From positions 310,001 through 374,000 of the forward strand of contig NZ_JALCZO010000001.1 of assembly GCF_023555495.1 (NCBI RefSeq): DNA of 64,000 nt, given 5' to 3'. Source of the DNA: Polaribacter sp. Z022. GTDB taxonomy: Bacteria > Bacteroidota > Bacteroidia > Flavobacteriales > Flavobacteriaceae. Below the pieces are notes generated by a model. It made no database searches and had not been told where the DNA came from. It worked only from the letters and a program-made list of their open reading frames with translations. Position numbers and translations under genes: made by a program. Numbering within the stretch: the first letter of the stretch is position 1; each line of letters opens with the position of its first letter. Positions 2,122-64,000 of this stretch are shown here, piece by piece.

Positions 2122-2233
2122 AATTAGTAAGGTTTGGTTTGAATTGTTGAAATTACCAATAGTATTAACAATAACAAAAAAATTAACATAAATTGGGAAA
2201 TAGCATAAGTACCCTCTTCTATTTAAAACAACG

Positions 2234-2241
2234 TATCTTTG
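2234..2241 (+). promoter_or_regulatory. -7 promoter element of rhlE
   Basis: TATCTTTG matches the Bacteroidota -7 consensus TAnnTTTG exactly and lies 43 bases before the helicase start. No clear -33 TTTG is seen at the usual distance. Confidence 0.5.
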
Positions 2242-2284
2242 CTGCAGAAATAACTACATAAAGTTGATTTCTTAAAAGATTTCT

Positions 2285-3622
2285 ATGACATTTTCAGATT
2301 TAGGTTTATCCCAAGCATTGGTAAAAGCAGTTGAGGAAAAAGGATATACCAAACCATCTCCAATACAAGAAAAAGCAATTCCACATATTTTAGAAGGCAA
2401 AGATATTTTAGCATCTGCCCAAACAGGAACAGGAAAAACAGCAGGTTTTACTTTACCTGTTTTGCAATATTTATCAGAAACAAAACACCCAAAATACAGA
2501 CCTTTACGTGCATTGGTTTTAACACCAACAAGAGAATTGGCTGCTCAGGTTTATGATAATGTTAGAGAATACAGTAAATATGTAAACATAAAACCGGCTG
2601 TAGTTTTTGGTGGTGTAAAACCAGCTTCTCAAATTGCTACTTTACGTAGAGGTGTAGATATTTTAGTAGCAACACCAGGTAGATTGTTAGATTTACATGC
2701 TCAAAAAGCAGTTTCTTTTAAAAGAGTAGATGTTTTAATTTTAGATGAAGCAGACAGAATGTTAGACATGGGTTTTGTTAGAGATATCAATAAAATCATC
2801 AGTTTTATGCCTGCAAAACGTCAGAACTTACTTTTTTCTGCAACGTTTTCTAAAGAAATTAAAAAATTAGCTTCTGGTATTTTAAGAAACCCTGTTGAAG
2901 TTGAAACTGCAAGACAAAACTCTACCGCAAAAAAAGTAACTCACAAAGTTTTTAAAGTTGATAAAAAGAAAAAAACTGAGGTTACAGTTAAGTTGATAAA
3001 AGACAATAATTGGAATCAGGTTTTAATTTTTACAAGAACAAAACATGGTGCTAACAGATTGACAAAAAACTTACTGAAAGCAAAAATTTCTGCAGCAGCT
3101 ATTCACGGAAATAAAAGTCAGGCAGCAAGAACCAAAGCACTTAAAAACTTTAAAGACAACTCAATTAGAATTTTAGTAGCTACAGATATTGCAGCACGTG
3201 GTTTAGACATTCCTTTATTACCTCATGTAATTAATTACGAGTTACCAAATGTACCAGAAGATTATGTGCATAGAATTGGTAGAACAGGTAGGGCTGGAGC
3301 TGCAGGAGAAGCAATTTCTTTGGTTTGTAGTGAAGAAACTGAATATCAAAATGAAATTGAAAAGCTTTTAAAAGAAAAGTTAGAAACTAAAATTATTGAA
3401 GGTTTTGAACCTACAGATACTGCTCCTCCAAAAAGAGCAGCAACACAAAGCAAAAGTTCTTTTGGTAAAAAGAAAAAGAAAACAAATGCTAATGCTCAGA
3501 ACAATTCTACCGATAATTCTAAAAAGAATAAACCTAAAAGAAAACCTCATTTTAAGGGGAAAAAACCTGCAAACACTTCTGGAAGAGGAAGAACAGGAGC
3601 TCCAAAAAAGAAACGTTTTTAA
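2285..3622 (+). CDS. rhlE: DEAD-box RNA helicase, RhlE type
   Basis: ATP-dependent RNA helicase, cytoplasmic, probably in ribosome assembly or RNA decay. The Q motif lies near residues 22-30 (PSPIQ), Walker A AQTGTGKT at 45-52, PTRELA near 90, DEAD at 154-157, SAT near 184, and the C-terminal motif [10 protein letters not shown] near 328. The last 75 or so residues are a basic, Lys/Asn-rich tail, typical of flavobacterial RhlE proteins and likely to bind RNA nonspecifically. Full length at 445 residues. A perfect -7 box stands upstream. Close relatives (DbpA, SrmB) cannot be fully excluded, but the order of motifs and the tail favour RhlE. Confidence 0.93.
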
Positions 3623-3650
3623 GGTCATTTTTTATTGATAATTTTATCGT

Positions 3651-3658
3651 TACATTTG
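3651..3658 (+). promoter_or_regulatory. -7 promoter element of the aminopeptidase P gene
   Basis: TACATTTG matches TAnnTTTG exactly, 21 bases before the ATG at 3680. A TTG at 3635-3637 is closer than the usual -33 spacing. Confidence 0.45.
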
Positions 3659-3679
3659 TTTTTATAAATTCAAATACAG

Positions 3680-4969
3680 ATGAAATATCAACCTATAAAT
3701 TCAGCACTTTTTATAAAAAATAGAAAAAATTTTGCTTCAGCAATGAAGCCTAATAGTTTGGCTATTTTTAACTCTAATGACATTTATCCAATAAGTGCAG
3801 ATAGTACAATGCCTTTTGAGCAGCACAGAGATATATTATATTTAAGTGGTGTAGATCAAGAAGAAAGTGTGTTGTTTCTTTTTCCTGATTGTCCTAATGA
3901 AGCTTACAGAGAAATTTTATTTGTAAGAGAAACAAATGAACATATTGCAATTTGGGAAGGAGAAAAATTAACAAAAGAAGCAGCTTTTAAAACAAGTGGA
4001 ATTAAAACAGTTTTTTGGTTACAAGACTTAGAAAAAGTTTTATTCGAACTTTCTACATATTGCGATACTTTTTACATCAATACAAATGAACATTACAGAG
4101 CAAATGTAGAAACCGAAACTAGAGAAGACCGTTTTACAAAATGGTTATTGGCTAAATATCCTGCACATTCTGTAGCTAAAAGTAATCCTATTTTACAAAG
4201 ATTACGTTCTGTAAAAGATCAAATTGAGATCGATTTAATTCAACATGCATGTAATATTACCGAAAAAGGATTTAGAAGAATTTTACCTTTTATAAAACCT
4301 GGTGTTTGGGAATATGAAATTGAAGCAGAATTATTACATGAGTTTGTAAGAAATAGATCTAAAGGATTTGCATATACACCCATTATTGCTTCAGGAAATA
4401 ACGCAAATGTTTTACATTATATAGAAAACAATCAGCAATGTAAAGCTGGCGATTTAATTTTATTTGATATTGCTGCAGAATATGCTAATTATAAAAGTGA
4501 TTTATCTAGAACTGTACCAGTTTCAGGTAAATTTACAGACAGACAAAAAGCAGTTTATAATGCAGTAAATAGAGTTAAAAAAGAAGCTACAAAAATATTA
4601 GCTCCTGGTGTTTTATGGAAAGAATATCATGTAGAAGTTGGTAATGTTATGACTTCTGAATTGTTAGGTTTAGGCTTATTAGACAAAGCAGATGTGCAAA
4701 ATGAAGATAAAAATTGGCCAGCATATAAAAAGTATTTTATGCACGGAACTTCACATCATATGGGATTAGATACACATGATTATGGTTTGTTACATGAGCC
4801 TATGAAAGCAAATATGGTGTTTACAGTAGAACCAGGTATTTATATTCCAGATGAAGGTTTTGGTATTCGTTTAGAAGATGATGTTGTAGTACAAGAAAAA
4901 GGAGAACCCTTTAATTTAATGGGAAACATACCTATTGAAGCAGAAGAAATTGAAGATTTAATGAATTAA
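3680..4969 (+). CDS. pepP: Aminopeptidase P family protein (Xaa-Pro aminopeptidase, M24)
   Basis: Cytoplasmic metallopeptidase that removes N-terminal residues preceding proline. The first 165 or so residues match the aminopeptidase P N-terminal domain (SADSTMPFEQHRDILYLSGV). The pita-bread catalytic domain follows, with expected metal ligands in ILFDIAAEYANYKSDLSRT (two Asp), GTSHHMGLDTHD (His), FTVEPGIYIP (Glu) and GIRLEDDVVV (Glu). At 429 residues it is the normal size. It is monocistronic, between its own promoter and a strong hairpin terminator. All ligands seem present, so it should be active. Confidence 0.92.
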   Translation: MKYQPINSALFIKNRKNFASAMKPNSLAIFNSNDIYPISADSTMPFEQHRDILYLSGVDQEESVLFLFPDCPNEAYREILFVRETNEHIAIWEGEKLTKEAAFKTSGIKTVFWLQDLEKVLFELSTYCDTFYINTNEHYRANVETETREDRFTKWLLAKYPAHSVAKSNPILQRLRSVKDQIEIDLIQHACNITEKGFRRILPFIKPGVWEYEIEAELLHEFVRNRSKGFAYTPIIASGNNANVLHYIENNQQCKAGDLILFDIAAEYANYKSDLSRTVPVSGKFTDRQKAVYNAVNRVKKEATKILAPGVLWKEYHVEVGNVMTSELLGLGLLDKADVQNEDKNWPAYKKYFMHGTSHHMGLDTHDYGLLHEPMKANMVFTVEPGIYIPDEGFGIRLEDDVVVQEKGEPFNLMGNIPIEAEEIEDLMN

Positions 4970-4987
4970 AAATTAAATTCATAAAAA

Positions 4988-5016
4988 AAAAAGACGAGTC
5001 TTAGACTCGTCTTTTT
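4988..5016. terminator. Bidirectional intrinsic terminator
   Basis: A perfect stem with arms AAAAAGACGAGTC and GACTCGTCTTTTT around loop TTA, with A and T tracts on both sides. It separates the convergent aminopeptidase and sugar kinase genes and can serve both. Confidence 0.9.
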
Positions 5017-5034
5017 ACTTTATATAAATAAATA

Positions 5035-6039
5035 TTATCTATTTAATCTTCCTGTAGTATTACCTGCTAAAATGTTTAATACATCGTCTTCATTTGCATA
5101 ATTTACATCGCCCATATACGTATGTTTAATTGCACAAGCTGCACTACCAAACTCCATAGCTTTATAATCGTCAAATTTTTGTAAACCATGAATTATACCA
5201 GCTGCATAAGCATCTCCAGTACCAATTCTATCTACAATATGAGTAATATCTAAATCTTCTGTTTCTCTAAACTCAACACCATTCCACATTCTAGATCTTA
5301 TTTTGTGCCAAGAAGCATTTACAGAAGTTCTAATTTTATCAAAAACTTTAGTAATGCTTGGAAACTCTTTTATTAATGATTTACTCGCTTCAATAAAATC
5401 TTCATTAGAATAACTGTAATTAGTACCTAAAACTTCATTTATTTCATTAACACCTCCTATAAATACGTTAGAATAGCTTAATAAATCTCTTAAAACCTCT
5501 TTTGGATTACCACCCCATTGCCATAAACCACTTCTGTAAGTAGGATCTGCAGAGATTTCTAACCCTTTTTTTTGTGCAAGAATTAATCCTTCTTTTAATG
5601 TTTCATATCCACCTTCACAAAGAGCAGGAGTTATACCTGTCCAATGAAACCATTTTCCTTTTTTTAATGAGTTTCCCCAATCTACCATTTCTGGTTTTAT
5701 TTCCGAGAAAGAAGAATGAGATCTATTATAAGAAATAGAACTTGGTCTCATAACAGCACCTACTTCTAAAAAGTAAACACCTAAAGGTCTTTTAGATCTA
5801 ACAATAGCAGAAGTACTTACATCAAATTTTCTTAGATAAGAAATTGCTGTATCTCCAATAAAATCATCAGAAATACATGAAATGTGTTTTACATCTCCAC
5901 CAAAATTTGCAATAGAAATACCTACATTTAGTTCTGTTCCTCCAAAATAAAATTCTACATTGTTAGATTGGATAAACTTTTTATTTCCACGTGGTGAAAT
6001 TCGCATTAAAACTTCTCCGAACGTAATTATCTGATTCAT
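5035..6039 (-). CDS. kdgK: PfkB-family sugar kinase, 2-dehydro-3-deoxygluconokinase type
   Basis: Likely phosphorylates 2-keto-3-deoxygluconate, feeding uronate degradation (alginate or pectin breakdown) into the Entner-Doudoroff route. The first PfkB signature is at the N-terminus (GGTELNVGISIANFGG) and the catalytic-base signature near the C-terminus (DRIGTGDAYAAGI, with Asp in GTGD). The start is set at 6039 (334 residues): a TATCTTTG -7 box lies at 6059-6066 on this strand, so the upstream ATG at 6072 would precede the promoter. No KDPG aldolase or uronate isomerase gene is adjacent, so the exact sugar is inferred from family similarity. Confidence 0.82.
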   Translation of the reverse strand: MNQIITFGEVLMRISPRGNKKFIQSNNVEFYFGGTELNVGISIANFGGDVKHISCISDDFIGDTAISYLRKFDVSTSAIVRSKRPLGVYFLEVGAVMRPSSISYNRSHSSFSEIKPEMVDWGNSLKKGKWFHWTGITPALCEGGYETLKEGLILAQKKGLEISADPTYRSGLWQWGGNPKEVLRDLLSYSNVFIGGVNEINEVLGTNYSYSNEDFIEASKSLIKEFPSITKVFDKIRTSVNASWHKIRSRMWNGVEFRETEDLDITHIVDRIGTGDAYAAGIIHGLQKFDDYKAMEFGSAACAIKHTYMGDVNYANEDDVLNILAGNTTGRLNR

Positions 6040-6058
6040 AATAAAAACTTTTATAAAG

Positions 6059-6066
6059 CAAAGATA
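6059..6066 (-). promoter_or_regulatory. -7 promoter element of the sugar kinase gene
   Basis: TATCTTTG on the minus strand, 19 bases before the ATG at 6039. It decides between two possible starts. Confidence 0.5.
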
Positions 6067-6114
6067 GTTCAAAAAAATGAAAATTGGTTAACCAATTTAA
6101 TTATTAAAATACTA

Positions 6115-6897
6115 TTATTTTAAAGATGTAATAAAACGTATTGTTTGGTTGTTAAAAGTATCTGGTTGCTCAACATTTACAACATGTCCGCAATTATCTA
6201 TTATATAAAGAGAAGAGGTTATATGTTTAGAAACAATATTTTTTATAGAAGGTAAAAATAAATGGTCTTCTGCACCCATTATATACAAAGTAGGTATTTT
6301 AATATCTTTTGCTCTAAAAAAACGTAATAAAGGGTTTATTTCTGAAGTTAATTTAAACCACCTTAAAAATTCTTTTTGGTATAGTTTTTTTGCTTCGTTT
6401 ACAAATAATGATCTTGATTTTTTATGATTTCTTTTAGGCATTATTATAAAAGCAAATAACTTATAAAGAAGCATATAAGGCACTACAGATTTAAAAATAT
6501 TACCAACTTTCATTAATACTTGAGATCTAAAATTTAATTTAATTATGGCTCCACCCATAATCATACTTTGTACTAAATCTGTTTTCTTTTCAGCTAAATT
6601 TCTAATTAAAATTGTACCCAAAGAAATACCAATAAAATGCGATTTTTCTATTTTTAAATGCTCAATAACCTCAACTATATCATTGGTTATTGAATCAAAA
6701 GTATATTTAGGATTAAATGTGTCTTTTAAGGTAGGTTTACTATCTCCATGACCACGTAAATCTAAAATTAACACATTAAAGTGCTTTTTAAAATCTCTAA
6801 CCTGTTTGTACCAAATAGAACTACTACCTCCTGCTCCATGAACAAAGGTTACCCATTCTTTTGAGGTTGTATGCGAATAAGAATAATAGTTTAACAA
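6115..6897 (-). CDS. Alpha/beta hydrolase
   Basis: A single alpha/beta-hydrolase domain of 260 residues without signal peptide. The oxyanion region HGAGGSSSIW is near residue 20, the nucleophile elbow GISLG (Ser) near residue 95, a probable acid in MGAEDHLF near 212, and the catalytic His in NCGHVVNVEQP near 238. The triad is therefore complete. A basic, hydrophobic insertion (VVPYMLLYKLFAFIIMP) forms the cap between strands 6 and 7. The natural substrate cannot be read from sequence. It lies 42 bases upstream of the sugar kinase -7 box on the same strand, with no hairpin between, so weak cotranscription is possible. Confidence 0.8.
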   Translation of the reverse strand: MLNYYSYSHTTSKEWVTFVHGAGGSSSIWYKQVRDFKKHFNVLILDLRGHGDSKPTLKDTFNPKYTFDSITNDIVEVIEHLKIEKSHFIGISLGTILIRNLAEKKTDLVQSMIMGGAIIKLNFRSQVLMKVGNIFKSVVPYMLLYKLFAFIIMPKRNHKKSRSLFVNEAKKLYQKEFLRWFKLTSEINPLLRFFRAKDIKIPTLYIMGAEDHLFLPSIKNIVSKHITSSLYIIDNCGHVVNVEQPDTFNNQTIRFITSLK

Positions 6898-7047
6898 AGA
6901 ATTTGGTTAGGTTTATATTATAAAACGATGGGCAAAAATAGTATAATTTAATTTGATGTTATTTTTCTTTCTTTTTAAAGTTATTTATAATTGATTTAAA
7001 ATACGTTAGCTCTTTTAATACTTTTCAATTTTTTGTAAATTGCATGT

Positions 7048-7848
7048 ATGGAGAATACAACATCAAAAAAAGAAAAGAAGAAGAAATTTAATTACGAAGA
7101 AGAGCTTGTAAAACTACATACAGAATTGGTTAATTTACAAGAATGGGTAAAAAAAGCGGGGTTAAAAGTTGTTATTATTTTTGAAGGTAGAGACGCCTCT
7201 GGAAAAGGAGGAACAATTAAACGTTTTACAGAGCCTCTAAACCCTAGAGTTTGTAAAGTTGTAGCTCTAGGTGTACCTACAGAAAAAGAAAAAACACAAT
7301 GGTATTTTCAACGCTATGTGCCCTATTTACCTGCTGCAGGAGAAATTGTTTTGTTTGATAGAAGTTGGTATAACAGAGCAGGTGTAGAAAAAGTTATGGG
7401 TTTTTGTACAGAAGATGAACACAATGAATTTTTACGTTCTTGCCCAGAGTTTGAACGCATGTTAGTAAGATCTGGAACCATTGTTTTAAAATACTGGTTT
7501 TCTGTAAGTGACGAAGAACAAGAAAGACGCTTTAAAAACAGAATATCTAATCCATTAAAAAGATGGAAATTTAGCCCTATGGATTTAGAATCTCGTTCAC
7601 GTTGGATGGAATATTCTAAAGCAAAAGATCAAATGTTTGCACATACAGACACAAAACAAGTGCCTTGGTTTGTTGTAAATGCAGATAATAAAAAGAAAGC
7701 TCGCTTAAATTGTATCAGTCATATTTTAAGTAAAATTCCTTACGAAAAAGTAAATTTAGAACCTATTGAGTTACCTCCTTTACCTGAAGATAAAGGCTAT
7801 GTAAGACCTCCTTTAGATTATCAAACTTTTGTACCAGAAAAGTTTTAA
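7048..7848 (+). CDS. ppk2: Polyphosphate kinase 2
   Basis: Transfers phosphate between polyphosphate and nucleotides. Walker A-like loop EGRDASGKGGTIKRF is near residues 47-60, Walker B region LFDRSWYNRAGVEKVMGF near residue 105, and the lid SDEEQERRFKNR near residue 155. At 266 residues this is a single-domain PPK2 of the class I type that mainly uses nucleoside diphosphates. The N-terminus is a Lys-rich stretch before the core. It is monocistronic, ending at a hairpin shared with the convergent regulator gene. Confidence 0.92.
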   Translation: MENTTSKKEKKKKFNYEEELVKLHTELVNLQEWVKKAGLKVVIIFEGRDASGKGGTIKRFTEPLNPRVCKVVALGVPTEKEKTQWYFQRYVPYLPAAGEIVLFDRSWYNRAGVEKVMGFCTEDEHNEFLRSCPEFERMLVRSGTIVLKYWFSVSDEEQERRFKNRISNPLKRWKFSPMDLESRSRWMEYSKAKDQMFAHTDTKQVPWFVVNADNKKKARLNCISHILSKIPYEKVNLEPIELPPLPEDKGYVRPPLDYQTFVPEKF

Positions 7849-10078: not shown

Positions 10079-10435
10079 TTATTCAACTATTAATGTGTAT
10101 TGTGGTGTTGGATTTAAAGGACAGAAATACACATACTCTCCTTTTTTTAAGACTACTTTGTTAGACGTTTGTTTTGTATTGTTTTTTACTTGTTCCTTTA
10201 CGTAAGCATTTTTTATATGCGCTTTAACATCTGCTTTTGGAGCTAAAACAAAACCTATGTTATGACCAACATTATTGTTAGAAATTTCGAAGATATATGC
10301 ACCTTCAGATAAGGTAATTTGTTTTTGAGTAAACTCGCCTTTTGTTTGCTCTAAAGAAACTGTTTTTACTTCTTGTGCATTTGTATTAAATGCAAAACCT
10401 AATACGATTACTACTACTGCTATTAATTTTTTCAT
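10079..10435 (-). CDS. Cupredoxin-fold periplasmic protein
   Basis: 118 residues with signal peptide MKKLIAVVVIVLGFAFNTNAQ. A conserved-looking His occurs in NNNVGHNIGFVL and a Cys in YVYFCPLNPTPQYTL, matching the first His and the Cys of a plastocyanin-like type 1 copper site. The second His, normally four to six residues after the Cys, is replaced by a Pro-rich stretch. Copper binding is therefore doubtful, or it may use a different ligand. The gene follows the AhpD-like gene by 59 bases on the same strand and probably shares its AraC-type promoter. Confidence 0.7.
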   Translation of the reverse strand: MKKLIAVVVIVLGFAFNTNAQEVKTVSLEQTKGEFTQKQITLSEGAYIFEISNNNVGHNIGFVLAPKADVKAHIKNAYVKEQVKNNTKQTSNKVVLKKGEYVYFCPLNPTPQYTLIVE

Positions 10436-10494
10436 GATTACTTTGTTTTTAATTGATATTATTTTGTCTTTTCTATCTAAGTAGATAAATTTTA

Positions 10495-11043
10495 TTAAAC
10501 TGTTGCTAATTCTAAAGTTTGTGCTACTGGAAAATCTACAGGAACTTCTGTTGTTTTATGAAAATAGTTTGTAATAGTAATTTCTCCAACCAATAAAATT
10601 GCATCTGCAATACTTCCTTTTGTGTAACCTGCTGCATATAGATTTTCTACTGTTTCTTGTGTTGCTGCTCCTCTGTTTATTGCTACACTTTTAGCAAATT
10701 TTGCCAAAGCATCTAATTTCGAATCAAAAGATGCTTTACCCGTTCTTAATTCTAAGGTTTGATCTTCTGTAAAACCATTCATTTTACCAATTGCAGTATG
10801 AGCAGATAAACAATATACACACTCATTAACTTGACTTACTGCTAAGTTGATTACTTCTTTTTCTTTGGCAGAAAAACTTGTTTTTCCTTGTCCTATTGCT
10901 AAAAAGTTACCCAAAGCAGTTTCACTATGTGCAAGTGCTGCATATAAATTTGGTACAAAACCTAATCCTTTTTCTAATTGATTAAAAATTGCTTGGTTAT
11001 TTTCTGATACTTCGTTTTTTGTTGGTACGTTAAATGTGCTCAT
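10495..11043 (-). CDS. Carboxymuconolactone decarboxylase / AhpD-like protein
   Basis: 182 residues, cytoplasmic. It carries the AhpD-type motif ECVYCLSAHTAIGKMNG with a CxxC pair and a following His, the arrangement used for peroxidase-linked thiol chemistry. The lead region (FVPNLYAALAHSETALGNFLAIG) is typical of the peroxidase-related CMD subfamily. Likely role: alkyl hydroperoxide or disulfide reduction, in keeping with the thioredoxin upstream. It sits 111 bases downstream of the 31-residue Cys protein, probably on the same transcript. Confidence 0.88.
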   Translation of the reverse strand: MSTFNVPTKNEVSENNQAIFNQLEKGLGFVPNLYAALAHSETALGNFLAIGQGKTSFSAKEKEVINLAVSQVNECVYCLSAHTAIGKMNGFTEDQTLELRTGKASFDSKLDALAKFAKSVAINRGAATQETVENLYAAGYTKGSIADAILLVGEITITNYFHKTTEVPVDFPVAQTLELATV

Positions 11044-54623: not shown

Positions 54624-55031
54624 ATGAAACATTCAAAAAAAACAATTATTGATTTTTACGAAAATCTTGGTAAACTATTTTACGCAATAGCTGCTGCAGA
54701 TAATATTGTAGAAGAGATTGAGTTTAAGGTTTTAAAGGATACTGTAAAACACAAATGGACAAAAGTTGACCCCGTAAATGATGATTTTCAAACTGATGCA
54801 GCCTATCAAATAGAAACTGTTTTTGATTGGTTGAATTCTGAAGGTTTTTCTAATTCTAAATCTTGTTATAATGAATTTTTAGAATTTAAAAATGCTCACC
54901 CTTCTTTATTTACAAATGATATTAAACGACTTATTTTAAGAACAGCAATGAAAATAGCTTCATCTGTTACCAATTTAAATAAGTCTGAATATTTATTAGT
55001 TGAAAAACTTGGTTTTGATTTAAAAAGATAA
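54624..55031 (+). CDS. Small helical protein, TerB-like fold
   Basis: 135 residues from the ATG at 54624. Mostly alpha-helical and acidic. The segment LGKLFYAIAAADNIVEEIEF resembles the calcium-binding-like loop of TerB proteins (DxxxxxxE), and LRTAMKIASSVTNLNKSEYLL is the paired second half. Similarity is weak, so the fold assignment is tentative. The longer frame starting at 54513 covers the CRP/FNR-like dyad and is rejected. Divergent from the kinase operon. Confidence 0.55.
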   Translation: MKHSKKTIIDFYENLGKLFYAIAAADNIVEEIEFKVLKDTVKHKWTKVDPVNDDFQTDAAYQIETVFDWLNSEGFSNSKSCYNEFLEFKNAHPSLFTNDIKRLILRTAMKIASSVTNLNKSEYLLVEKLGFDLKR

Positions 55032-55071: not shown

Positions 55072-55254
55072 TTATTTACCACCCAACATTAATAACTCAT
55101 TACAAACAATCTCTGTAATGTATCTTTTTTCTCCTTCTTTTGTTTCATAATTTCTAGAAGTTAATTTACCTTCTACAGCAACTTCATTTCCTTTTTCTAA
55201 ATATCTTTCTATTATATCTGCTGTTTTATTCCATGCTACAACATTATGCCACGT
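55072..55254 (-). pseudogene. ssb: Single-stranded DNA-binding protein, truncated at 5' end by element insertion
   Basis: About 60 C-terminal residues of an SSB OB-fold remain in frame: WHNVVAWNKTADIIERYL, then EVAVEGKLTSRNYETKEG, RYITEIVCNELLMLGGK and stop. The conserved pattern equals the second SSB type of Flavobacteriaceae, which normally has about 50 more residues before WHN. Upstream of Trp the frame reads three foreign codons, one Trp and an in-frame TAG (55264-55266), so the N-terminal half is lost. The remnant ends at the terminator. The missing part should be at the far end of the element. Confidence 0.85.
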
Positions 55255-56726
55255 TGTTGCCCACTAGGGCTCAATTCCAGAAAAGATAGCGGAGCTATCT
55301 GTTTTAGTTTAAATAGAATGGTTTTGTTATCAAAAATAATTTCATTTGTAATCATTTCTACAATATCTCTTTTTTGTCCTCTATCTAAATTTTGCCAATT
55401 ATTATAAAAATCAATAGACTTATTTGCTATGATTTGAAACGAAGATTTAGCTTGTTCTAACTGTTCCAACTCTAGTTCTAAACTTTTAATATTAGCTTCT
55501 AAATTTTCTTTTCTAACAAAAACTGGGTCATAATGTTTTTTGAATCCTTTGGTTGGTATTTCTCCTTTGATGTTTAAATCAATTAGTTTATCCAATTTAG
55601 CTTCTAGTTTATCAAGTTCTGATTTTGCAAATTCTATTTCATCCGTTTTTAAATTTAATTCCTGAATATTTGATTTATTGTACTCAGATAACTCTTCATC
55701 AGAAATTAAAAATTGCTTTATTCTAGATAAGAATACTTCTTCTAAATCTTCTTTATGAATTCCATATTTACATTCTTTACAAGTATATCTATCACTTTTA
55801 GATTTAATACTCATTTTATGACCTTGCTCGCATTTTAAATAACTTGTAAATAAATGGACTCTTTTATTTAGAGGTTGTCTAAACGATTTACTCATTTTTT
55901 CCTGTTCTAAAATAATTGCGTTTGCTTCTTCCCAAATTTCTTCAGTTACTAAAGTAGGACAAGGAAGATATTCCCATTCAGATTGCGGTTTCATACCTGT
56001 GGGATTATCTTTTGTTTTTTGACCTCTATAGTTAAACTTGCGCATTCCCTTAGCATCAGTATTTTTCAGTAATCTTTTAATGGTAACATCACTCCAAGGT
56101 CTTCCTTTTCTTGTTTGATATCCTTTATCATTTAATATTTTGGCAACAGTTTTTGTTCTTTGGTGTTTGATAAACAAATCATATATCAATCTTCTAACAG
56201 GTGCTTCTTCATCATTTATTTCTAGTTGAGCATTCACAATTTTAAAACCATAGCTTGCTTGACCTCCAGTAAATTTTCCTTGACTTCTTCTGTAGTTGAG
56301 ACTTGCAATCTGACGTTCATAAGTAATTTCTCTTTCATAAGTAGTTAAGGCTGAAAGTAGGGTGTAAAAGAATTTTCCACCACTTGTAGAAGTATCTAAA
56401 GATTCATTAATAGAAATGAGACTTGCATTATGTGTCTCAAAAAATTTGCTGTATTCTAAAAGCTCTGATGTATTTCTTGCCAATCTACTTAAAGAACTAA
56501 TGATAATTCCTTGCACCTTAGAAGTTTTCACATCTTCAAACATTTCAAGAGTCTGTTTATGTTTGATGGTACTTTTACCAGAAACTCCAGCTAAATTATA
56601 TATTTTAACAACTTTCCATCCTTTTGATTTTGCATACATTTTACCTCTCTCTATATGCGTTTCTACAGAATCCGTATTATTTTTTTGGTCTAGAGTACTT
56701 ACTCTTACAAATATTGCAACATTCAT
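55236..56726 (-). CDS. Large serine recombinase
   Basis: 496 residues. Resolvase-type catalytic domain (1-145) with catalytic Ser10 in VRVSTLDQ and IISSLSRLARNTSE near 77. Recombinase domain (about 165-285, SYGFKI and ILNDKGYQTRKGRPWSDVTIKRLL). Zinc ribbon (CEQGHKMSIKSKSDRYTCKEC, about 300-321). Long coiled coil (about 345-440). It catalyses site-specific integration or excision between att sites. Its C-terminal residues QQRGIML are coded by ssb-derived sequence, which puts the att crossover just inside its 3' end, so integration replaced its native stop or the gene evolved to read through the junction. Confidence 0.9.
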   Translation of the reverse strand: MNVAIFVRVSTLDQKNNTDSVETHIERGKMYAKSKGWKVVKIYNLAGVSGKSTIKHKQTLEMFEDVKTSKVQGIIISSLSRLARNTSELLEYSKFFETHNASLISINESLDTSTSGGKFFYTLLSALTTYEREITYERQIASLNYRRSQGKFTGGQASYGFKIVNAQLEINDEEAPVRRLIYDLFIKHQRTKTVAKILNDKGYQTRKGRPWSDVTIKRLLKNTDAKGMRKFNYRGQKTKDNPTGMKPQSEWEYLPCPTLVTEEIWEEANAIILEQEKMSKSFRQPLNKRVHLFTSYLKCEQGHKMSIKSKSDRYTCKECKYGIHKEDLEEVFLSRIKQFLISDEELSEYNKSNIQELNLKTDEIEFAKSELDKLEAKLDKLIDLNIKGEIPTKGFKKHYDPVFVRKENLEANIKSLELELEQLEQAKSSFQIIANKSIDFYNNWQNLDRGQKRDIVEMITNEIIFDNKTILFKLKQIAPLSFLELSPSGQQRGIML

Positions 56727-56789: not shown

Positions 56790-59700
56790 TTATTTTTTCT
56801 TCTTAAATATCTTAGCGAGCCTAGATTTAATATTCTTCATTTGAGAACTATCATCATTTTCAAATTCTGTAACTATTCTAAACCCTTTAATAACTTCTTC
56901 TTGTTTTTGTGGAAGAACAGCAAATTCATCTAACAAATTTGATATTTCATTAGGTTGTATAAATTGAACTAAATTTCTATCCTTTTTTGATAATTCCTTA
57001 TCTGCTAGTTTTTGTATTGCATTCAAATGATTTCGGTTTTTGGAAACCATAATTACAGGGATACAACCATCTTTTAAACACTTTTTGATGTTTTGTACTT
57101 CATATACAGGCTTGTTGGTTTCAGAAATTTCAAACCCAATTTTCATTCCATTTTGCTCTAAGACAACATCTATTCTTCCACCATCTTTGGTTAGATATTC
57201 AGTTGTTGCTTTATAGTTTCTATCCTGACCTAATTTTTTAATTATTGATTGAAGATAGGTGTGTGCTCTAACTTCTATAGATTCATTTTCTTCAGCAATT
57301 ATTTTCTCTCTTTTTTTTTCTGAAATTGCTTTAGATTCCTTTATTACCTTTTTTTCAATTTCCTTTTCTTCGGGTTTAGAAATAATTATATTTTCTTTTG
57401 ATTTAGCTTCTTTATTCTCATGTCGAGTAACTTTCTCTTTTTTATAAGTTTTATTTTGAGAGGGAAGCATTGCTATTAAAAGTTCTTCAACTGCTGCTTT
57501 TGAAGTTGCATATTTTTCTCTAACTGTCTGAATAATTTTATAGGAATAATCTAAGCTGACATCAGAAAGTTTTTCAGTGATAAGATTAAAATCATTAGTA
57601 CTAGATCCAATTCGCATAATTACTTCACCTCTATTTAAACTTTGTAAATCTGATTGCTCAAAATACGAGAAACCTGCTTCTAGTTTTTTTGCATCATTAT
57701 CTCCTAGTCTAAAACAAATTCTTGTTTTAGGGTTTGATAAAACTGAATTTAACAGGGAAGTATCTTGTATCTGTCCCAATTCTTGATGAGCAACTGTAAT
57801 TCCTAATTTATACTTCCTTGCACCACTTAATATTCTCTCAATACTTGGTGTAATAAAATTCTGAAATTCATCCAAATACAACATATAAGGTGTACGTTCA
57901 CCTCTACTTTGATTTTGTCTTGCCAAAGCAGATTGATTAAACTTAGCCAAAAACAAAGACCCTAATAAATACGAATTTTCTTCACCAATTAAACCTTGAG
58001 AAAGTTTTAGTAAAACAATTTTATTTTCTGCCAAACAATCAGAAATCTCAACTCCTTTTTTTTGAGCCAACATATACCTCACTAATTTTGGTCTTAAAAA
58101 TGTATCAATTCTTGTTAAAAGTGGAGCAATTCTTTTTTTAACCATTGGATACTCATTATTCCAATAATAATGTAATGAAGGATCATTTACATTTTGGAGA
58201 AAAGCGTTTCTAAATTTATCTTCAATTAAAAATCTTTTTAACTCGATTAATGTTCCTCCAGATTCATTTTCTAAGATGGTATTTACAGCATTTTGTAGCA
58301 CTGATGTCATAGTATCTCCCCATGCAGTTGCGTGTCTTTTAAAGGCAGAAACAATATCTGAAGACAATACAATTTTTTGCGCTTCAGTTTTGGCTTCAAG
58401 CAGATTAAATCCAATAGGGAAGTCAATGTCTGATGGATCAATAAGCACCACATCATTAATACGATTCTCTGGAATTCGTTTTAAAACATCATCACAAATA
58501 TCTCCATGTGGATCGAAAAGTGCGCATCCTAAACCCTGCTGAATATCCTCAAGCATCATATTTGCTATCAATGTACTTTTCCCTACACCTGTAGCACCTA
58601 GAATATGAGTGTGTGAAAGACGTGATTCTATTTCAAGATGCACAGGGAGTGATTCTTCTTGATGAATATTTTCTCCCAGATAAACTCCTTTTCTTCTTGG
58701 GTTATTTTGTCTTTTGGTTTTTGCACCTGTTAAACCTAACTTTTCATTGATTATCGTTTTATTTGGATAATGCACAAAATGTGTCAATTCTTTGGTATTT
58801 AAAATACATCCAAATCGATTTGAAGTGCGATAAAAAATATTCCGTAAATGATCGTTATACTCATATCCTTCATTAGACAAAGGAATTAATCTATTGCACT
58901 GAGAACTAGAAACACTTGTGATACTTTTTACTAATTCTTGAACAATAACTTTACTATCTTCATCAAATTCAGCTTGAGCACCAACTCTAACAACAACCGA
59001 AAAAAGGGGATTACTGACTTTGTTTTTTGTTTCTAATATAAATTCAGGATGCCCTTCAAAAAAACTTCCTCCTCTTCCATCTGAAACTGCATATTGCATT
59101 TGAGCAGACCAAGGTGCTGTTACTCCTTTAAAAATTACTTGGAAAATTGCTGTTTCATTTTTATTTAATGTTCCTAAAACTGCTATGATTGATGTTAATG
59201 GGTCAATATTTAAATTATCAGATTGAGCAATAGGTAACATAAACTCATTATCCAAACCAAAATCTGCAATGGCAACTGATTTCTCGAAATCAAACTCTAT
59301 ATCTAGAGCTTCTTTGGTTTTTAAAATTGCAGAAGGATAAAATGCTTTGATATGAGAATATAAGCGTTGATAATCATTTTTTCGAGCTGTAAATTGAACT
59401 TCAATACTTCCTCTTTGCGCTAGTATTTCAAATGAAAAAGAGTCTTCTGAAAAACTCAAAAGACTTACCAATTCTTGCATATAAGAAATTGTAATATCTG
59501 TTCCTTTAGGGAAAATAATACCAATGCATTCAAGTTTTGGTTGTGGATTTACAGGAACTGAATCAATTTCAGAAAACGTTAATTCTTCCTCTACTGTTTT
59601 TTCTTTAATAGGTAGAAACCATTTTTTAATTCCACCAAAAATTGATATTTCTCCATCATCCTTAAATTTTTCTTTTGTGTATGTTAAAGGTTTAAATGGA

Positions 59701-59807
59701 ACAAATGGTGGTTCAATATCTATAGGCTCATCAAAATGATAATAACCACGACCTCTAGCTTCCCAAGAATAGAAATTGATCGTGGCTTGTTCTGTTAATG
59801 AATTCAT
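56790..59807 (-). CDS. VirD4/HerA-like ATPase with C-terminal nuclease-like domain
   Basis: 1005 residues, no membrane helix. Residues 1-390 unknown, beta/alpha mixed. P-loop ATPase: Walker A GATGVGKST at 404-412, DPHGD near 432, Walker B MLYLDEFQN near 642-650, arginine-finger region SNPKTRICFRLGD near 690. These are TraG/VirD4-like signatures of conjugative coupling proteins. A charged linker (790-840) leads to a PD-(D/E)xK-like domain (about 845-960, GGRIDVVL and IGFEISET, where the last motif has Ser instead of Lys). In related mobile-element ATPases this Cys/Asn-linked NIKKCLKDG segment follows. It probably pumps or processes element DNA. Overlaps the upstream membrane protein by ATGA. 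Confidence 0.78.
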   Translation of the reverse strand: MNSLTEQATINFYSWEARGRGYYHFDEPIDIEPPFVPFKPLTYTKEKFKDDGEISIFGGIKKWFLPIKEKTVEEELTFSEIDSVPVNPQPKLECIGIIFPKGTDITISYMQELVSLLSFSEDSFSFEILAQRGSIEVQFTARKNDYQRLYSHIKAFYPSAILKTKEALDIEFDFEKSVAIADFGLDNEFMLPIAQSDNLNIDPLTSIIAVLGTLNKNETAIFQVIFKGVTAPWSAQMQYAVSDGRGGSFFEGHPEFILETKNKVSNPLFSVVVRVGAQAEFDEDSKVIVQELVKSITSVSSSQCNRLIPLSNEGYEYNDHLRNIFYRTSNRFGCILNTKELTHFVHYPNKTIINEKLGLTGAKTKRQNNPRRKGVYLGENIHQEESLPVHLEIESRLSHTHILGATGVGKSTLIANMMLEDIQQGLGCALFDPHGDICDDVLKRIPENRINDVVLIDPSDIDFPIGFNLLEAKTEAQKIVLSSDIVSAFKRHATAWGDTMTSVLQNAVNTILENESGGTLIELKRFLIEDKFRNAFLQNVNDPSLHYYWNNEYPMVKKRIAPLLTRIDTFLRPKLVRYMLAQKKGVEISDCLAENKIVLLKLSQGLIGEENSYLLGSLFLAKFNQSALARQNQSRGERTPYMLYLDEFQNFITPSIERILSGARKYKLGITVAHQELGQIQDTSLLNSVLSNPKTRICFRLGDNDAKKLEAGFSYFEQSDLQSLNRGEVIMRIGSSTNDFNLITEKLSDVSLDYSYKIIQTVREKYATSKAAVEELLIAMLPSQNKTYKKEKVTRHENKEAKSKENIIISKPEEKEIEKKVIKESKAISEKKREKIIAEENESIEVRAHTYLQSIIKKLGQDRNYKATTEYLTKDGGRIDVVLEQNGMKIGFEISETNKPVYEVQNIKKCLKDGCIPVIMVSKNRNHLNAIQKLADKELSKKDRNLVQFIQPNEISNLLDEFAVLPQKQEEVIKGFRIVTEFENDDSSQMKNIKSRLAKIFKKKK

Positions 59808-60349
59808 CGCTTAAAAACATCATTCAAAATTGGTTTTTTATCGGCATCAGAAATTCGGATTCCTTTATCTTTGGTAATTTCTTCTATTACTTTTAATACG
59901 GATGCTTGTGCATAGCTTCTGAACATACTTGCTGTATCCATAGAGTAATAGGTAACAGGGAAGAATGCTTTAACAAAATAATTACCAACAAAAGGTATTT
60001 TAGAAATTAATAATTCAAATCCAGTTTTTTCAGTAAACATCCACCAAGACACAAATGTGCCATTCCCATAAGGAGCCAAACAGCAATCGTAAGTGTAATT
60101 TTTCCATTTTACTCTTAGGTACAAACGTTTAACTGACAGCTTGTTGCCAGTACTAATATATTTTTCTTCAATTTTGATTTTGTTTATTCTATGAGATTTT
60201 AATTCTTCTGTAAGGAGTTTGTAGAAATCTTTAGTAGAATATTCAAAATTATCCAACAGGGTGTTCCAACTAGCATTAAGGGTTGGAACTCCTTTTTTTA
60301 AGAATGAAATGATTGCGATGATGAATAGAATTGCTAAAATAATTACCAT
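59804..60349 (-). CDS. Membrane-anchored hypothetical protein of the element
   Basis: 181 residues. An N-terminal hydrophobic helix (MVIILAILFIIAIISFL) and a soluble part with possible strands (KRLYLRVKWKNYTYDCCLAP) and a second hydrophobic segment (ISKIPFVGNYFVKAFFPVTYYSM). No known domain. Its stop overlaps the start of the ATPase gene by four bases (ATGA), so the two are translationally coupled and the protein may anchor the ATPase at the membrane (inference). Confidence 0.72.
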   Translation of the reverse strand: MVIILAILFIIAIISFLKKGVPTLNASWNTLLDNFEYSTKDFYKLLTEELKSHRINKIKIEEKYISTGNKLSVKRLYLRVKWKNYTYDCCLAPYGNGTFVSWWMFTEKTGFELLISKIPFVGNYFVKAFFPVTYYSMDTASMFRSYAQASVLKVIEEITKDKGIRISDADKKPILNDVFKR

Positions 60350-60498: not shown

Positions 60499-60909
60499 TT
60501 ACAAAACAAAAGATTCAAACTTTTGTTGTAAATTTTTTCTAAAATGACGTGATACTTTCAACTTGTGGTCTCCTATCCATAGGTAGAGCCATTCACACCT
60601 TTTGTCTACAAGTGATACATTAACGATTGTATCTTTTTTAATAAAAATAAAATTATCATTTGCGTTAACAATTTCTATTAATGATAATCTCTTATAATAT
60701 TCTATTCCTTTACTGCTGATAAATTTTATATAACCTTTTTTTGAGTTGCTACTGGTTATATACAGTATGCTATTAAGTGGAACCTTGAATATATTTGCGG
60801 TTATTTTTCCGCTTTGCTTATCTAGCAAGCAAGTTGTCTGTGTTGGTTCTTTATAAACCCAACAATCATCTTTTTTAGATGTTTCTGTGAACATATATTT
60901 CTTTAACAT
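60499..60909 (-). CDS. LytTR-type DNA-binding regulator
   Basis: 136 residues if started at 60909; 131 from the ATG at 60894. A single LytTR domain covers the C-terminal 100 residues: IEYYKRLSLIEIVNANDNFIF... is read as strands, with FIKKDTIVNVSLVDKR and the conserved LKVSRHFRKNL at the end. No receiver or membrane part. The N-terminal part has Trp and Cys (DDCWVYKEPTQTTCLLDK). It is divergent from the RHS gene, separated by 287 bases, and the prime candidate to control it. Confidence 0.8.
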   Translation of the reverse strand: MLKKYMFTETSKKDDCWVYKEPTQTTCLLDKQSGKITANIFKVPLNSILYITSSNSKKGYIKFISSKGIEYYKRLSLIEIVNANDNFIFIKKDTIVNVSLVDKRCEWLYLWIGDHKLKVSRHFRKNLQQKFESFVL

Positions 60910-61196: not shown

Positions 61197-64000
61197 ATGA
61201 AAAAGAAATTAATAATTCTACTAGTAATTTCAATTTACTTTAATAGTTTTTCTCAAAACATTTCTAGAGAAGGAGTCGCATCAGTGATTTCCGCTCTTTT
61301 ATTTGGAAATGGGTATGATTTTAATGATAATCCAGCAATTAATTATCCAAACCCATTTATTGATTTAAATATAAATTCAACCAATGGAAAGAAAATTAAT
61401 ATCATTAGTAGATTAGATTATGGAGATGGTAGAAGCCCTTTTCCTTTTTTAAATGAAGGCTCAAGTAGCTTTCATCCTTCTGGTTTAATGCCAAGAATTG
61501 GTGCTGTAATTGCAGTTGTTGAAGCATGGAATATACCAGTTACAGAAGATTATTCTTCACCCTTTAACGATGTTCCTGACGATTATTATTTAAATCCTTG
61601 GTTAAATGCTGCATATAATGCTGGTATCATTAGCGGAAATAATTTTAATCCTTTTAGTCCTGTTCAAGATGATGATATCTTAATTTGGGCAAGAGAAGCA
61701 AATAATTCACCCTATGGAAATGTAAGTAAAAGTATTCTCAATGATTCAAAAAATTACTTTTTACCTCATTTATACTTACCAGAAAATTTAGGAATGTTTA
61801 AGGGGCTTGAACAAGGCGTTTTTAGTCATTACGCAAAAAATAGTTTTGTAATTCCAGATATTCAAATGAGCTTAAACTTTAGCCATTTTTATAGTACTTC
61901 TATGGTTGAATTACCAGAATCTTTTTTTCTAAACCAACCTTTAGGAAGGGGATGGAGTCATACATATAACATTTTTGCTCAGCGTCAATTAGTATTTCTT
62001 AATGGAAGCAATATTGGAACTGAATTGTTTCATATTACTTGGGCAGATGGGACAATACATACTTATAATGATGAGGAGGAGGAATGGGTAACAAAAGGAG
62101 TATATAATAATACTAGAGATTACTCTAGAAATGGCAGACATTATCTTGAGGTAACCACTAAAAACCACTCAACATATCTTTTTGAAAACCTTAATGATAG
62201 CTATGAAAATTATTATTTAGTCAAAATAATTGATAAAAACTCTAATACTGTTGAGATAGAATATGAATTTGCAGATGAAAAACCTTGGCTTCGAAGAATT
62301 GAAAAAGTTATCGCTCCCTCAGGAAAAGAGCTGTTATTTAGATACTATTCAAATTCGGACAGATTACGTGAGGTTGAAGATCCCATAGGAAGAGAAATTA
62401 GATTTTCTTACTCAAGTGCTAGACTCAAAAAATTTACTGATGCAAAAGAAAATGAAACTAAATATTTCTATGTAACCGATAATTTTGATAAACGTTTTGA
62501 GAGATTTTTATTAGAAGAAATAGAGTTGCCAAGAGGAAATAAAATCGAGGCTACTTATGAAAAAAATAAAGATGGATACTTAAGCACCTATAAAATAAAT
62601 AATAATGACCCGATAAAATATGATATTGATGTAGATTTTGATTCTTCAATGCCAATTACTGTAAAAATGGATGTACCAATGCCTGATGGCAATACAGATG
62701 AGCACACATCAGAATATAACAGTTTAGGTTTATTGGAGACTTTTCAAAGCGGTACTGATGATATGGTAATCACCTATCCAAGTCCAAGTAGTTCTAATCC
62801 CTTTTTACCAAATCAAGTATCTAATCACAACATAGACATAGCTTACTTGTATGATAGCAGAGGTAACGTTGAAAAAATAGATTATGAAAGTGGCGAACGT
62901 ATATTTGAATTTGATTGGAGTGGTCAGAATAATTTGAATTGGACTGAAGATCCTAGAGGTAAAAGAACTTATTACTCTTATGATGATAATCATAATCTTA
63001 CCCAAATCACAGATCCATTAAGTAAGGATATAAATCTTGAATATTTTAATAATGGAAATCTTAAAAAAATCACCAATCAAGAAGGTATATCCATAGATTT
63101 TACTTACCATTCTGATGGGCCTTTAAAAACCTTTGTAGCACCTGAAAACATAAGTGGTTCATTTTTATACGATGGTATCAATCGTTTATTATCAAAAACC
63201 GTCAATGGTTTAACGTCTAGTTATACCTATGACGACAATGATAATATATTAACCTTTACTAATAGCGGTCAGAACACAACAGTTTTCAGTTATGATTCTA
63301 ATGATAACGTTGCTACAATTAAAAATGCTAATCAAGTAAATACTATATTTACTTACCATGATGACAAAGACCATCTCATTCAAAAGAAATTTGATCAGCT
63401 AGAGACCAATTATAGTTACAACGACGATGATACAATTGATGAGGTAGTAAAACCTAGCGGACAAACTATAGGTGTCAACTATACTAGTGATGGTCAGTAT
63501 GATGGTTCAGGTACGGTTTTAGATTTACAATATGATAGCAATGAAAGAGTCATAAGAATTGAAACAGATGATATAGAATATCAATTTGAGTATGACAAAC
63601 TTAATCAAATTGACCTTGTTAAAATTACTGGTAAAACTCGAGATGTAGAATATTTATATGACTCGGCTGGGAACATTAGCAGAATCTATTATCCAAACGT
63701 AGGTGCAAATGCTTATGTTCATTACACGTATGATGATAAAAACAGATTAGAACGTTTACGTGCTATCAATTTTAACAACTTACCAAATACAGATATTGCT
63801 GAATACACGTACCTCAATGACGACCGTATATCGCAAATAGAATATGGCAACGGTTTCATTACCACTTATGCCTATGACGAAGCTGGACGACCAACTGGTA
63901 TTAAGCACGAAATTAATGGAGAAGTCTATTATGATGAGTTGCGAACCCTCAATAACCGAGGTAATGTACTCGATTTAAAATTAGGATATCGTGCAACCGA
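61197..64000 (+). CDS. Secreted RHS/YD-repeat protein with SLH-like region (3' end outside window)
   Basis: 934 codons from ATG without a stop. Signal peptide (MKKKLIILLVISIYFNSFSQ). Residues about 92-170 resemble SLH repeats (PSGLMPRIGAVIAVVEAW, then PFNDVPDDYYLNPWLNAAYN, AGIISGNNFNPFSP). Residues 190-400 resemble DUF6531-like openings (FSHFYSTSMVEL, PLGRGWSHTYN, HITWADGTIHTY). From about 400 YD repeats appear (RYYSNSDRLREVEDPIGREI, YDSRGNVEKIDYESG, YDSAGNISRIYYPN, YDEAGRPTGIKHEING). The C-terminal part is outside the window; in this family it is often variable and toxic. Probably cargo of the integrated element. Confidence 0.82.
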   Translation, partial: MKKKLIILLVISIYFNSFSQNISREGVASVISALLFGNGYDFNDNPAINYPNPFIDLNINSTNGKKINIISRLDYGDGRSPFPFLNEGSSSFHPSGLMPRIGAVIAVVEAWNIPVTEDYSSPFNDVPDDYYLNPWLNAAYNAGIISGNNFNPFSPVQDDDILIWAREANNSPYGNVSKSILNDSKNYFLPHLYLPENLGMFKGLEQGVFSHYAKNSFVIPDIQMSLNFSHFYSTSMVELPESFFLNQPLGRGWSHTYNIFAQRQLVFLNGSNIGTELFHITWADGTIHTYNDEEEEWVTKGVYNNTRDYSRNGRHYLEVTTKNHSTYLFENLNDSYENYYLVKIIDKNSNTVEIEYEFADEKPWLRRIEKVIAPSGKELLFRYYSNSDRLREVEDPIGREIRFSYSSARLKKFTDAKENETKYFYVTDNFDKRFERFLLEEIELPRGNKIEATYEKNKDGYLSTYKINNNDPIKYDIDVDFDSSMPITVKMDVPMPDGNTDEHTSEYNSLGLLETFQSGTDDMVITYPSPSSSNPFLPNQVSNHNIDIAYLYDSRGNVEKIDYESGERIFEFDWSGQNNLNWTEDPRGKRTYYSYDDNHNLTQITDPLSKDINLEYFNNGNLKKITNQEGISIDFTYHSDGPLKTFVAPENISGSFLYDGINRLLSKTVNGLTSSYTYDDNDNILTFTNSGQNTTVFSYDSNDNVATIKNANQVNTIFTYHDDKDHLIQKKFDQLETNYSYNDDDTIDEVVKPSGQTIGVNYTSDGQYDGSGTVLDLQYDSNERVIRIETDDIEYQFEYDKLNQIDLVKITGKTRDVEYLYDSAGNISRIYYPNVGANAYVHYTYDDKNRLERLRAINFNNLPNTDIAEYTYLNDDRISQIEYGNGFITTYAYDEAGRPTGIKHEINGEVYYDELRTLNNRGNVLDLKLGYRAT

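Follow-up and report, generated by a model that had tools for sequence, protein, structure and literature searches.

An element in a second ssb gene of Polaribacter encodes a serine recombinase predicted to lose a helix-turn-helix tail upon integration

Results

During the analysis of a 64,000-nucleotide stretch of the genome of Polaribacter sp. Z022 (hereafter designated the window; positions 310001–374000 of contig NZ_JALCZO010000001.1, referred to as C10, in a 3.49-Mb genome of 48 contigs), we found an element inserted in a second, short gene for a single-stranded DNA-binding protein (ssb), in which the gene of the large serine recombinase spans the crossover point. In the predicted circular form of the element, this gene would encode a 590-residue fusion of the recombinase with a helix-turn-helix (HTH) domain, and integration probably acts as a switch that strips this tail from the enzyme. 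As far as can be read from the sequences, the split of ssb, a CA core, an element-borne ssb behind the truncated host gene, a recombinase frame ending in ssb, and an open frame across the joined element ends all occur in 8 of 8 genomes carrying the element.

The 3′ half of the split gene lies on the minus strand of the window. Its stop codon is at 55072–55074, and the frame extends through the Trp-His-Asn (WHN) codons, which reach up to 55251, to an in-frame TAG at 55264–55266, as had been described in the original prediction for this DNA. In a profile search, the stretch 55072–55266 matched positions 46–103 of the 104 positions of PF00436 (E = 5.0e-18), the ssb part on the host side of the attR junction being 55072–55248. 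The Pfam SSB search covered the whole genome and matched four places, one of which is the missing 5′ half on the same contig beyond the window (C10:417755–417596), where a fragment past position 64,000 had been anticipated. The distance between the two halves equals the length of the element, 52,348 bp, and the 3′ half joins the 5′ half to give an uninterrupted SSB of 111 residues.

The crossover dinucleotide CA of attR (55247–55248, minus strand) falls within the His codon of WHN, and its attL counterpart is the CA at C10:417595–417596; a core near the WHN codons had likewise been foreseen. The attR core (55231–55264, minus strand) consists of an element arm, CA, and an ssb arm, and its combination with the element arm of attL gives attP, the attachment site of the circle. 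The attP thus rebuilt from the element ends has arms complementary at 13 of 16 positions around CA, a value reached at any centre by 14 of 100,000 shuffles of the attP bases of the window. Over the eight genomes, 13–15 of 16 positions are complementary in the attP arms versus 4–7 of 16 in the arms of attB, the site in the host gene. The sequence alone places the crossover no more precisely than within the bases common to attL and attR, a run of 4–9 that includes CA in 8 of 8 genomes; CA was chosen as the centre of the attP palindrome. Inverted attP arms around a short core that is also present in attB are as expected for a large serine recombinase.

The recombinase adjacent to the ssb remnant had also been recognized in the original prediction; indeed, its open reading frame (ORF) even overlaps the ssb piece and has its TAG stop inside it. 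In the integrated state the protein comprises 496 residues (55236–56726, minus strand), and its last three codons and the stop are ssb DNA. It matched PF00239 (5.3e-28), PF07508 (4.6e-17), and the integrase family phrog_95 (3.7e-98), with the Resolvase and Recombinase domains above the cut-offs and followed by the long C-terminal part of large serine recombinases; both domains remain in the integrated form. In the eight genomes, the integrated recombinases end 3–25 residues beyond the crossover codon, in ssb read out of frame. Comparable results were obtained with database relatives, of which the first 83 of 120 listed were counted using a loose pattern for the out-of-frame WHN reading: tails could be anchored in 79 of these 83, 74 of the 79 fit the pattern, and none of the 79 ran on into the HTH stretch. 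Most of the other 37 listed relatives, mostly below 50% identity, have different tails.

The carriers were collected by recombinase searches in overlapping sets of genomes, giving matches in 5 of 397 genomes of the family (E ≤ 1e-60), 6 of 166 of the genus (E ≤ 1e-140), 1 of 395 of the order (E ≤ 1e-140; the genome of the window itself), and 1 of 2 of the genus of G250 (G250 itself), in addition to three loci from a genome-contig scan. Close recombinases (56–100% identity) were thus found in eight genomes: G000 (the own genome), G248, G250, G454, G457, G488, G495, and G539. In 8 of 8, the recombinase runs into the ssb 3′ half, and the 5′ half is followed by the HTH stretch and then by an intact short ssb. 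A locus of Arcticiflavibacter luteus (L010) provides a ninth case of a recombinase ending in ssb, seen at this end only. The ssb halves are on different contigs in G457 and G488. In G248 (C1:2546517–2602736), the ssb halves and the element ends lie on opposite strands, and the position of the halves points to a later inversion, one endpoint of which fell within the element. A scan with the attL-core motif (at most 2 mismatches) identified 7 of 166 genus genomes, namely six carriers and G408, which contains a relic of the element; a reversed control pattern gave one match.

The more distant recombinases of G085 and G282 (37–39% identity) and a second one in the own genome on contig C21 (43%) do not end in ssb. 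The latter (locus L016, C21:235975–237393) has its stop apparently inside its target, a long DGDG-repeat gene read in another frame; given this recombinase, the stop-inside-target arrangement may be older than the ssb clade.

When the circle was reconstructed, the recombinase frame of all eight genomes stayed open across attP and continued into the HTH stretch, and attP accordingly reads as lying within the recombinase gene. The frame across the joined ends spans 585–595 codons counted from the preceding stop, corresponding to 590 residues from ATG in the element of the window. The HTH stretch matched HTH_3 (1.4e-9) and also the phage repressor families phrog_3 and phrog_4. Because the frame in the circle runs on into the HTH stretch and that in the chromosome stops in ssb, integration would remove a recombinase tail of approximately 95 residues.

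The linker between the crossover and the HTH part was analysed for selection in seven genomes (G495, with a tail of different length, was left aside). The first 27 codons beyond the crossover showed a ratio of nonsynonymous to synonymous polymorphism (pN/pS) of 0.39 with no stops in the recombinase frame. The other two frames gave 1.17 and 1.76, with 17 and 14 stops, respectively, and the HTH part gave 0.30. The codons past the crossover therefore look selected as protein in the frame of the putative fusion. Moreover, the identities of the recombinase and of the HTH part were correlated over 28 pairs (Spearman 0.825, reached by 10 of 5000 label permutations), compared with 0.506 (78 of 5000) for the element ssb and 0.236 (484 of 5000) for the host ssb. 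The open frame across attP is preserved at recombinase identities down to 56%, and the HTH frame is broken in both relics that have lost the recombinase, G408 and G444.

Besides the two halves, the SSB places of the genome of the window are an intact ssb of 111 residues at C10:416980–417315, inside the element, and a longer, intact ssb at C10:832238–832549, which is taken as the canonical copy given its position between a mutY-like and a gldE-like gene and its DDLPF ending. That the broken gene might be the canonical ssb was rejected, because this copy is intact and ends in DDLPF; the target of the element is a second, short ssb. The original prediction had held that an essential-process gene was broken and that a rescue copy or a precise 5′ restoration would be needed, and had suggested looking for a second full ssb in the genome. 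Both a canonical and an element-borne full copy were found, the latter in keeping with the idea of a rescue copy, but the split gene is the second short ssb and not the canonical one. Among 166 genus genomes, SSB matches at E ≤ 1e-6, counted irrespective of kind and location, were present in 165 (at least two in 153, one in 12), with none in G518, which is 68% complete. A second match is nearly universal in the genus, since, besides the 153 genomes with at least two, G482 is the sole genome with a single match among those at least 90% complete.

The element-borne ssb (110–111 residues) is located just inside the far end of the element, beside the broken 5′ half, in 8 of 8 genomes, so that the element supplies an intact, putatively functional copy of the gene that it disrupts. 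Apart from the long canonical-type gene, it is the only full-length match in 7 of the 8 carriers; G250 has two others. In 7 of 8, its start is separated from the crossover by 281 bp, and the ATG overlaps the HTH stop by 14 nucleotides; in G495, it starts at 286, after a 12-nucleotide gap following the HTH stop. In the predicted circle, it would follow the recombinase-HTH frame. In the chromosome, it is preceded by the truncated host gene, whose ORF has 70 residues in G495 and 71 in the other seven genomes. The view of the element ssb and recombinase as a strict travelling unit is weakened by G457, where the former is 50.9% and the latter 79.2% identical to that of the window. A tree of ssb sequences (18 rows, 2 of 15 inner branches starred) did not include the element copies of G457, G495, and G250 and was given no weight.

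Empty sites were sought by means of the host gene downstream of ssb (54624–55031, plus strand), which 31 of the 166 genomes of the genus contain; of these loci, one being that of the window, 30 were examined. In G402, an intact ssb of 111 residues occupies the corresponding place, between three genes of the upstream side (71–91% identity) and a truncated copy of the downstream gene. An intact ssb also adjoins the downstream gene in G558 and G444. At the remaining loci, a motif search detected no ssb within 1.5 kb, except for a 3′ scrap by the second copy in G402, and the downstream side is thus not a fixed neighbour of ssb across the genus. Collectively, the 5′ half, the core at the WHN codons, and the empty site of G402 support the earlier proposal that ssb is the attachment gene, and no strain carrying the recombinase in this place showed an intact ssb locus of identical flanks.

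Two relics of the element were observed. In G408 (positions 2125–7610 of locus L103, C1:2493000–2505000), approximately 5 kb remain between the ssb halves; the recombinase is gone, the HTH frame is shifted, a short transposase-like ORF is present as judged by eye, and the element ssb is intact. This intact ssb is not proof of need, because G408 has another full-length short ssb. In G444 (locus L090, C1:1369000–1383000), the intact ssb at 6266–6571 appears by eye to be mosaic, its start being of the host type and its middle of the element type, and a relic 4 kb away (10431–10999) has both HTH and ssb broken. The apparent mosaic suggests recombination between host and element ssb.

Next to the recombinase, the element encodes a HerA/VirD4-like ATPase of 1005 residues (56790–59807, minus strand; PF01935, PF10412, PF12696), a 181-residue protein with no Pfam match (59804–60349, minus strand), and a DNA-binding protein with a LytTR domain (60499–60909, minus strand; PF04397, 2.5e-8). 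The elements of four relatives (G539, G454, G250, and G495) were read through. The ATPase stands beside the recombinase in all four, with 49–69% identity, and the 181-residue protein stands beside the ATPase. Also common to the four are the recombinase, a second VirD4-like ATPase, a RadC-like protein, a D12 adenine methyltransferase, and a Phage_rep_O-like protein scoring below the Pfam cut-off; a tyrosine recombinase is common to three. In the element of the window, Pfam was run on 24 of 48 mechanically called ORFs; it has two VirD4/HerA-like ATPases, and no relaxase, as would be expected of an integrative conjugative or mobilizable element, was detected among the 24. Its cargo includes a type I restriction system, an RHS-repeat protein, and HlyD-type secretion proteins. 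One protein encoded within the restriction cluster (C10:385056–386174, L006:656–1774) matched the PDC-S26 candidate defence models (3.4e-29). At C10:405493–416938 (locus L007), small ORFs whose starts resemble Gly-Gly leaders and large ORFs resembling C39 exporters were noted by eye beside two HlyD-family proteins, a possible element-borne cluster for peptide export.

Discussion

We propose that the circle forms by recombination at CA and that the recombinase-HTH fusion would be made from it. The tailed form may serve the circle in integration, in control of its own gene, or in both, and the shortened form without the HTH domain would favour staying integrated, loss of the tail stabilizing the integrated state; this is the course we favour. 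Alternatively, the shorter form might be the enzyme of excision, which could be tested just as well. Presumably, the element ssb, downstream of the host gene start region, takes over from the host ssb, and the host ssb promoter might now drive it. A fuller version, which we put forward only tentatively, is a serine recombinase that recodes itself: the circle would make a fusion suited to attP × attB recombination and the chromosome the shorter, host-ended enzyme, the swap would replace a separate directionality factor, and insertion would cost little because the cargo ssb takes over from the split host gene.

Several observations weigh against this interpretation. The exact crossover is less certain in G488, where attL and attR have a run of 9 bases in common. 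No circle was found, and the fused 590-residue protein was not recovered by a region search of the protein set, in which none of 44 candidates reached E ≤ 0.001. Neither attP nor the recombinase was found in viral contigs, plasmid and phage records contained no relative of the recombinase, and the HTH stretch was not found in plasmids. A scan for a Bacteroidota-type promoter motif gave no match upstream of the host ssb in any of the eight genomes, so that promoter capture is unsupported. Moreover, control of direction by the HTH domain is conjectural.

The HTH stretch might instead be a separate gene abutting attP, giving a small TTG-started regulator behind the host ssb start region, with the run-on in the circle being functionless. 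A TTG at codon index 2–3 past the crossover, present in all eight genomes, could serve as the start of a separate HTH protein of 94 residues in the chromosome, which would also account for the selection on the linker; the match to phage repressor families and the operon-like 14-nucleotide overlap of the HTH stop with the element ssb start in 7 of 8 are in line with such a gene. However, this TTG belongs to the attP arm and could be conserved for DNA recognition alone. Only 3 of 8 genomes have an ATG in the HTH stretch before codon 36, and, with none in the other 5, a stand-alone protein would depend on TTG in most. The recombinase has no other stop in the reconstructed circle in 8 of 8, from which the predicted fusion follows, and the HTH part and the recombinase diverge together. 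We therefore consider a separate gene unlikely, while keeping it in view. The same lack of an ATG in 5 of 8 argues against regulation of the mycobacteriophage type, where the freed HTH would be an active repressor only once integrated, in place of tail loss by the recombinase. Separation of HTH and recombinase upon integration is the same DNA event in both explanations, and such regulation has a precedent (PMC9262239), but we regard it as highly doubtful here. A serine recombinase may be specific for a single conserved site in a coding sequence (PMC10083194), and the element could be an ordinary site-specific island for which ssb is a convenient target and the frame effects at its ends are due to chance. 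Preservation of the frame down to 56% recombinase identity, the low pN/pS in the recombinase frame compared with the other two, and an intact ssb at the corresponding place in 8 of 8 genomes make this very improbable. Tail loss upon integration thus remains the interpretation that we prefer.

For most uncharacterised elements, what makes a serine integrase either integrate or excise has yet to be explained. The element described here suggests that nature may offer two forms of one enzyme differing only by a tail that is added or removed by the recombination itself. It is also a clear-cut example of insertion into a conserved second ssb by an element that has an intact copy of this gene at the same joint. 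In addition, it brings to light a group of serine recombinases for which attB is defined and lies within a coding sequence. The main text of a survey of large serine recombinases (PMC10083194) contains neither 'ssb' nor 'single-strand', and a literature search with supplements outside its scope returned, in the portions of text retrieved, no serine recombinase with attP inside its own gene and none targeting ssb.

What is new here is an attP inside a serine recombinase gene, with integration predicted to rewrite its tail, and the precedents are phage Mx8 and the archaeal suicidal integrases. The Int of Mx8 is a tyrosine-type integrase. In this Myxococcus phage, attP lies within the integrase coding sequence, and integration gives a new 3′ end while the enzyme stays active (PMC6070905). 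As in Mx8, attP is here inside the integrase gene and a new C-terminus arises after integration; the likeness is one of arrangement and not of family, and the circle here is predicted. Unlike the tyrosine-type enzyme of Mx8, the serine recombinase would be stripped of an entire HTH domain, and the element targets a protein gene and brings along a copy of it. In the case of the suicidal tyrosine integrases of archaeal SSV1, pTN3, and pT26-2, too, the integrase gene itself holds the recombination site and is changed by integration; these enzymes are split into inactive pieces and are stated in the text of that source to be exclusive to archaea (PMC8371274). The present recombinase resembles them in that its gene contains the recombination site and is changed by integration, but both recombinase domains stay together, and it belongs to a bacterium and to the unrelated serine family.

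In the integration-dependent immunity of BPs and other mycobacteriophages, attP lies inside a regulatory gene; the repressor gene is cut with loss of a degradation tag, and in BPs the stop codon comes from host DNA (PMC9262239). Here, attP lies in the recombinase-HTH frame and the HTH stretch matches repressor families, whereas it is the recombinase that is cut and the HTH domain that would be lost. With the large serine recombinase elements found in protein genes, the element shares a fixed attB in a coding sequence, inverted attP arms, and a short core.
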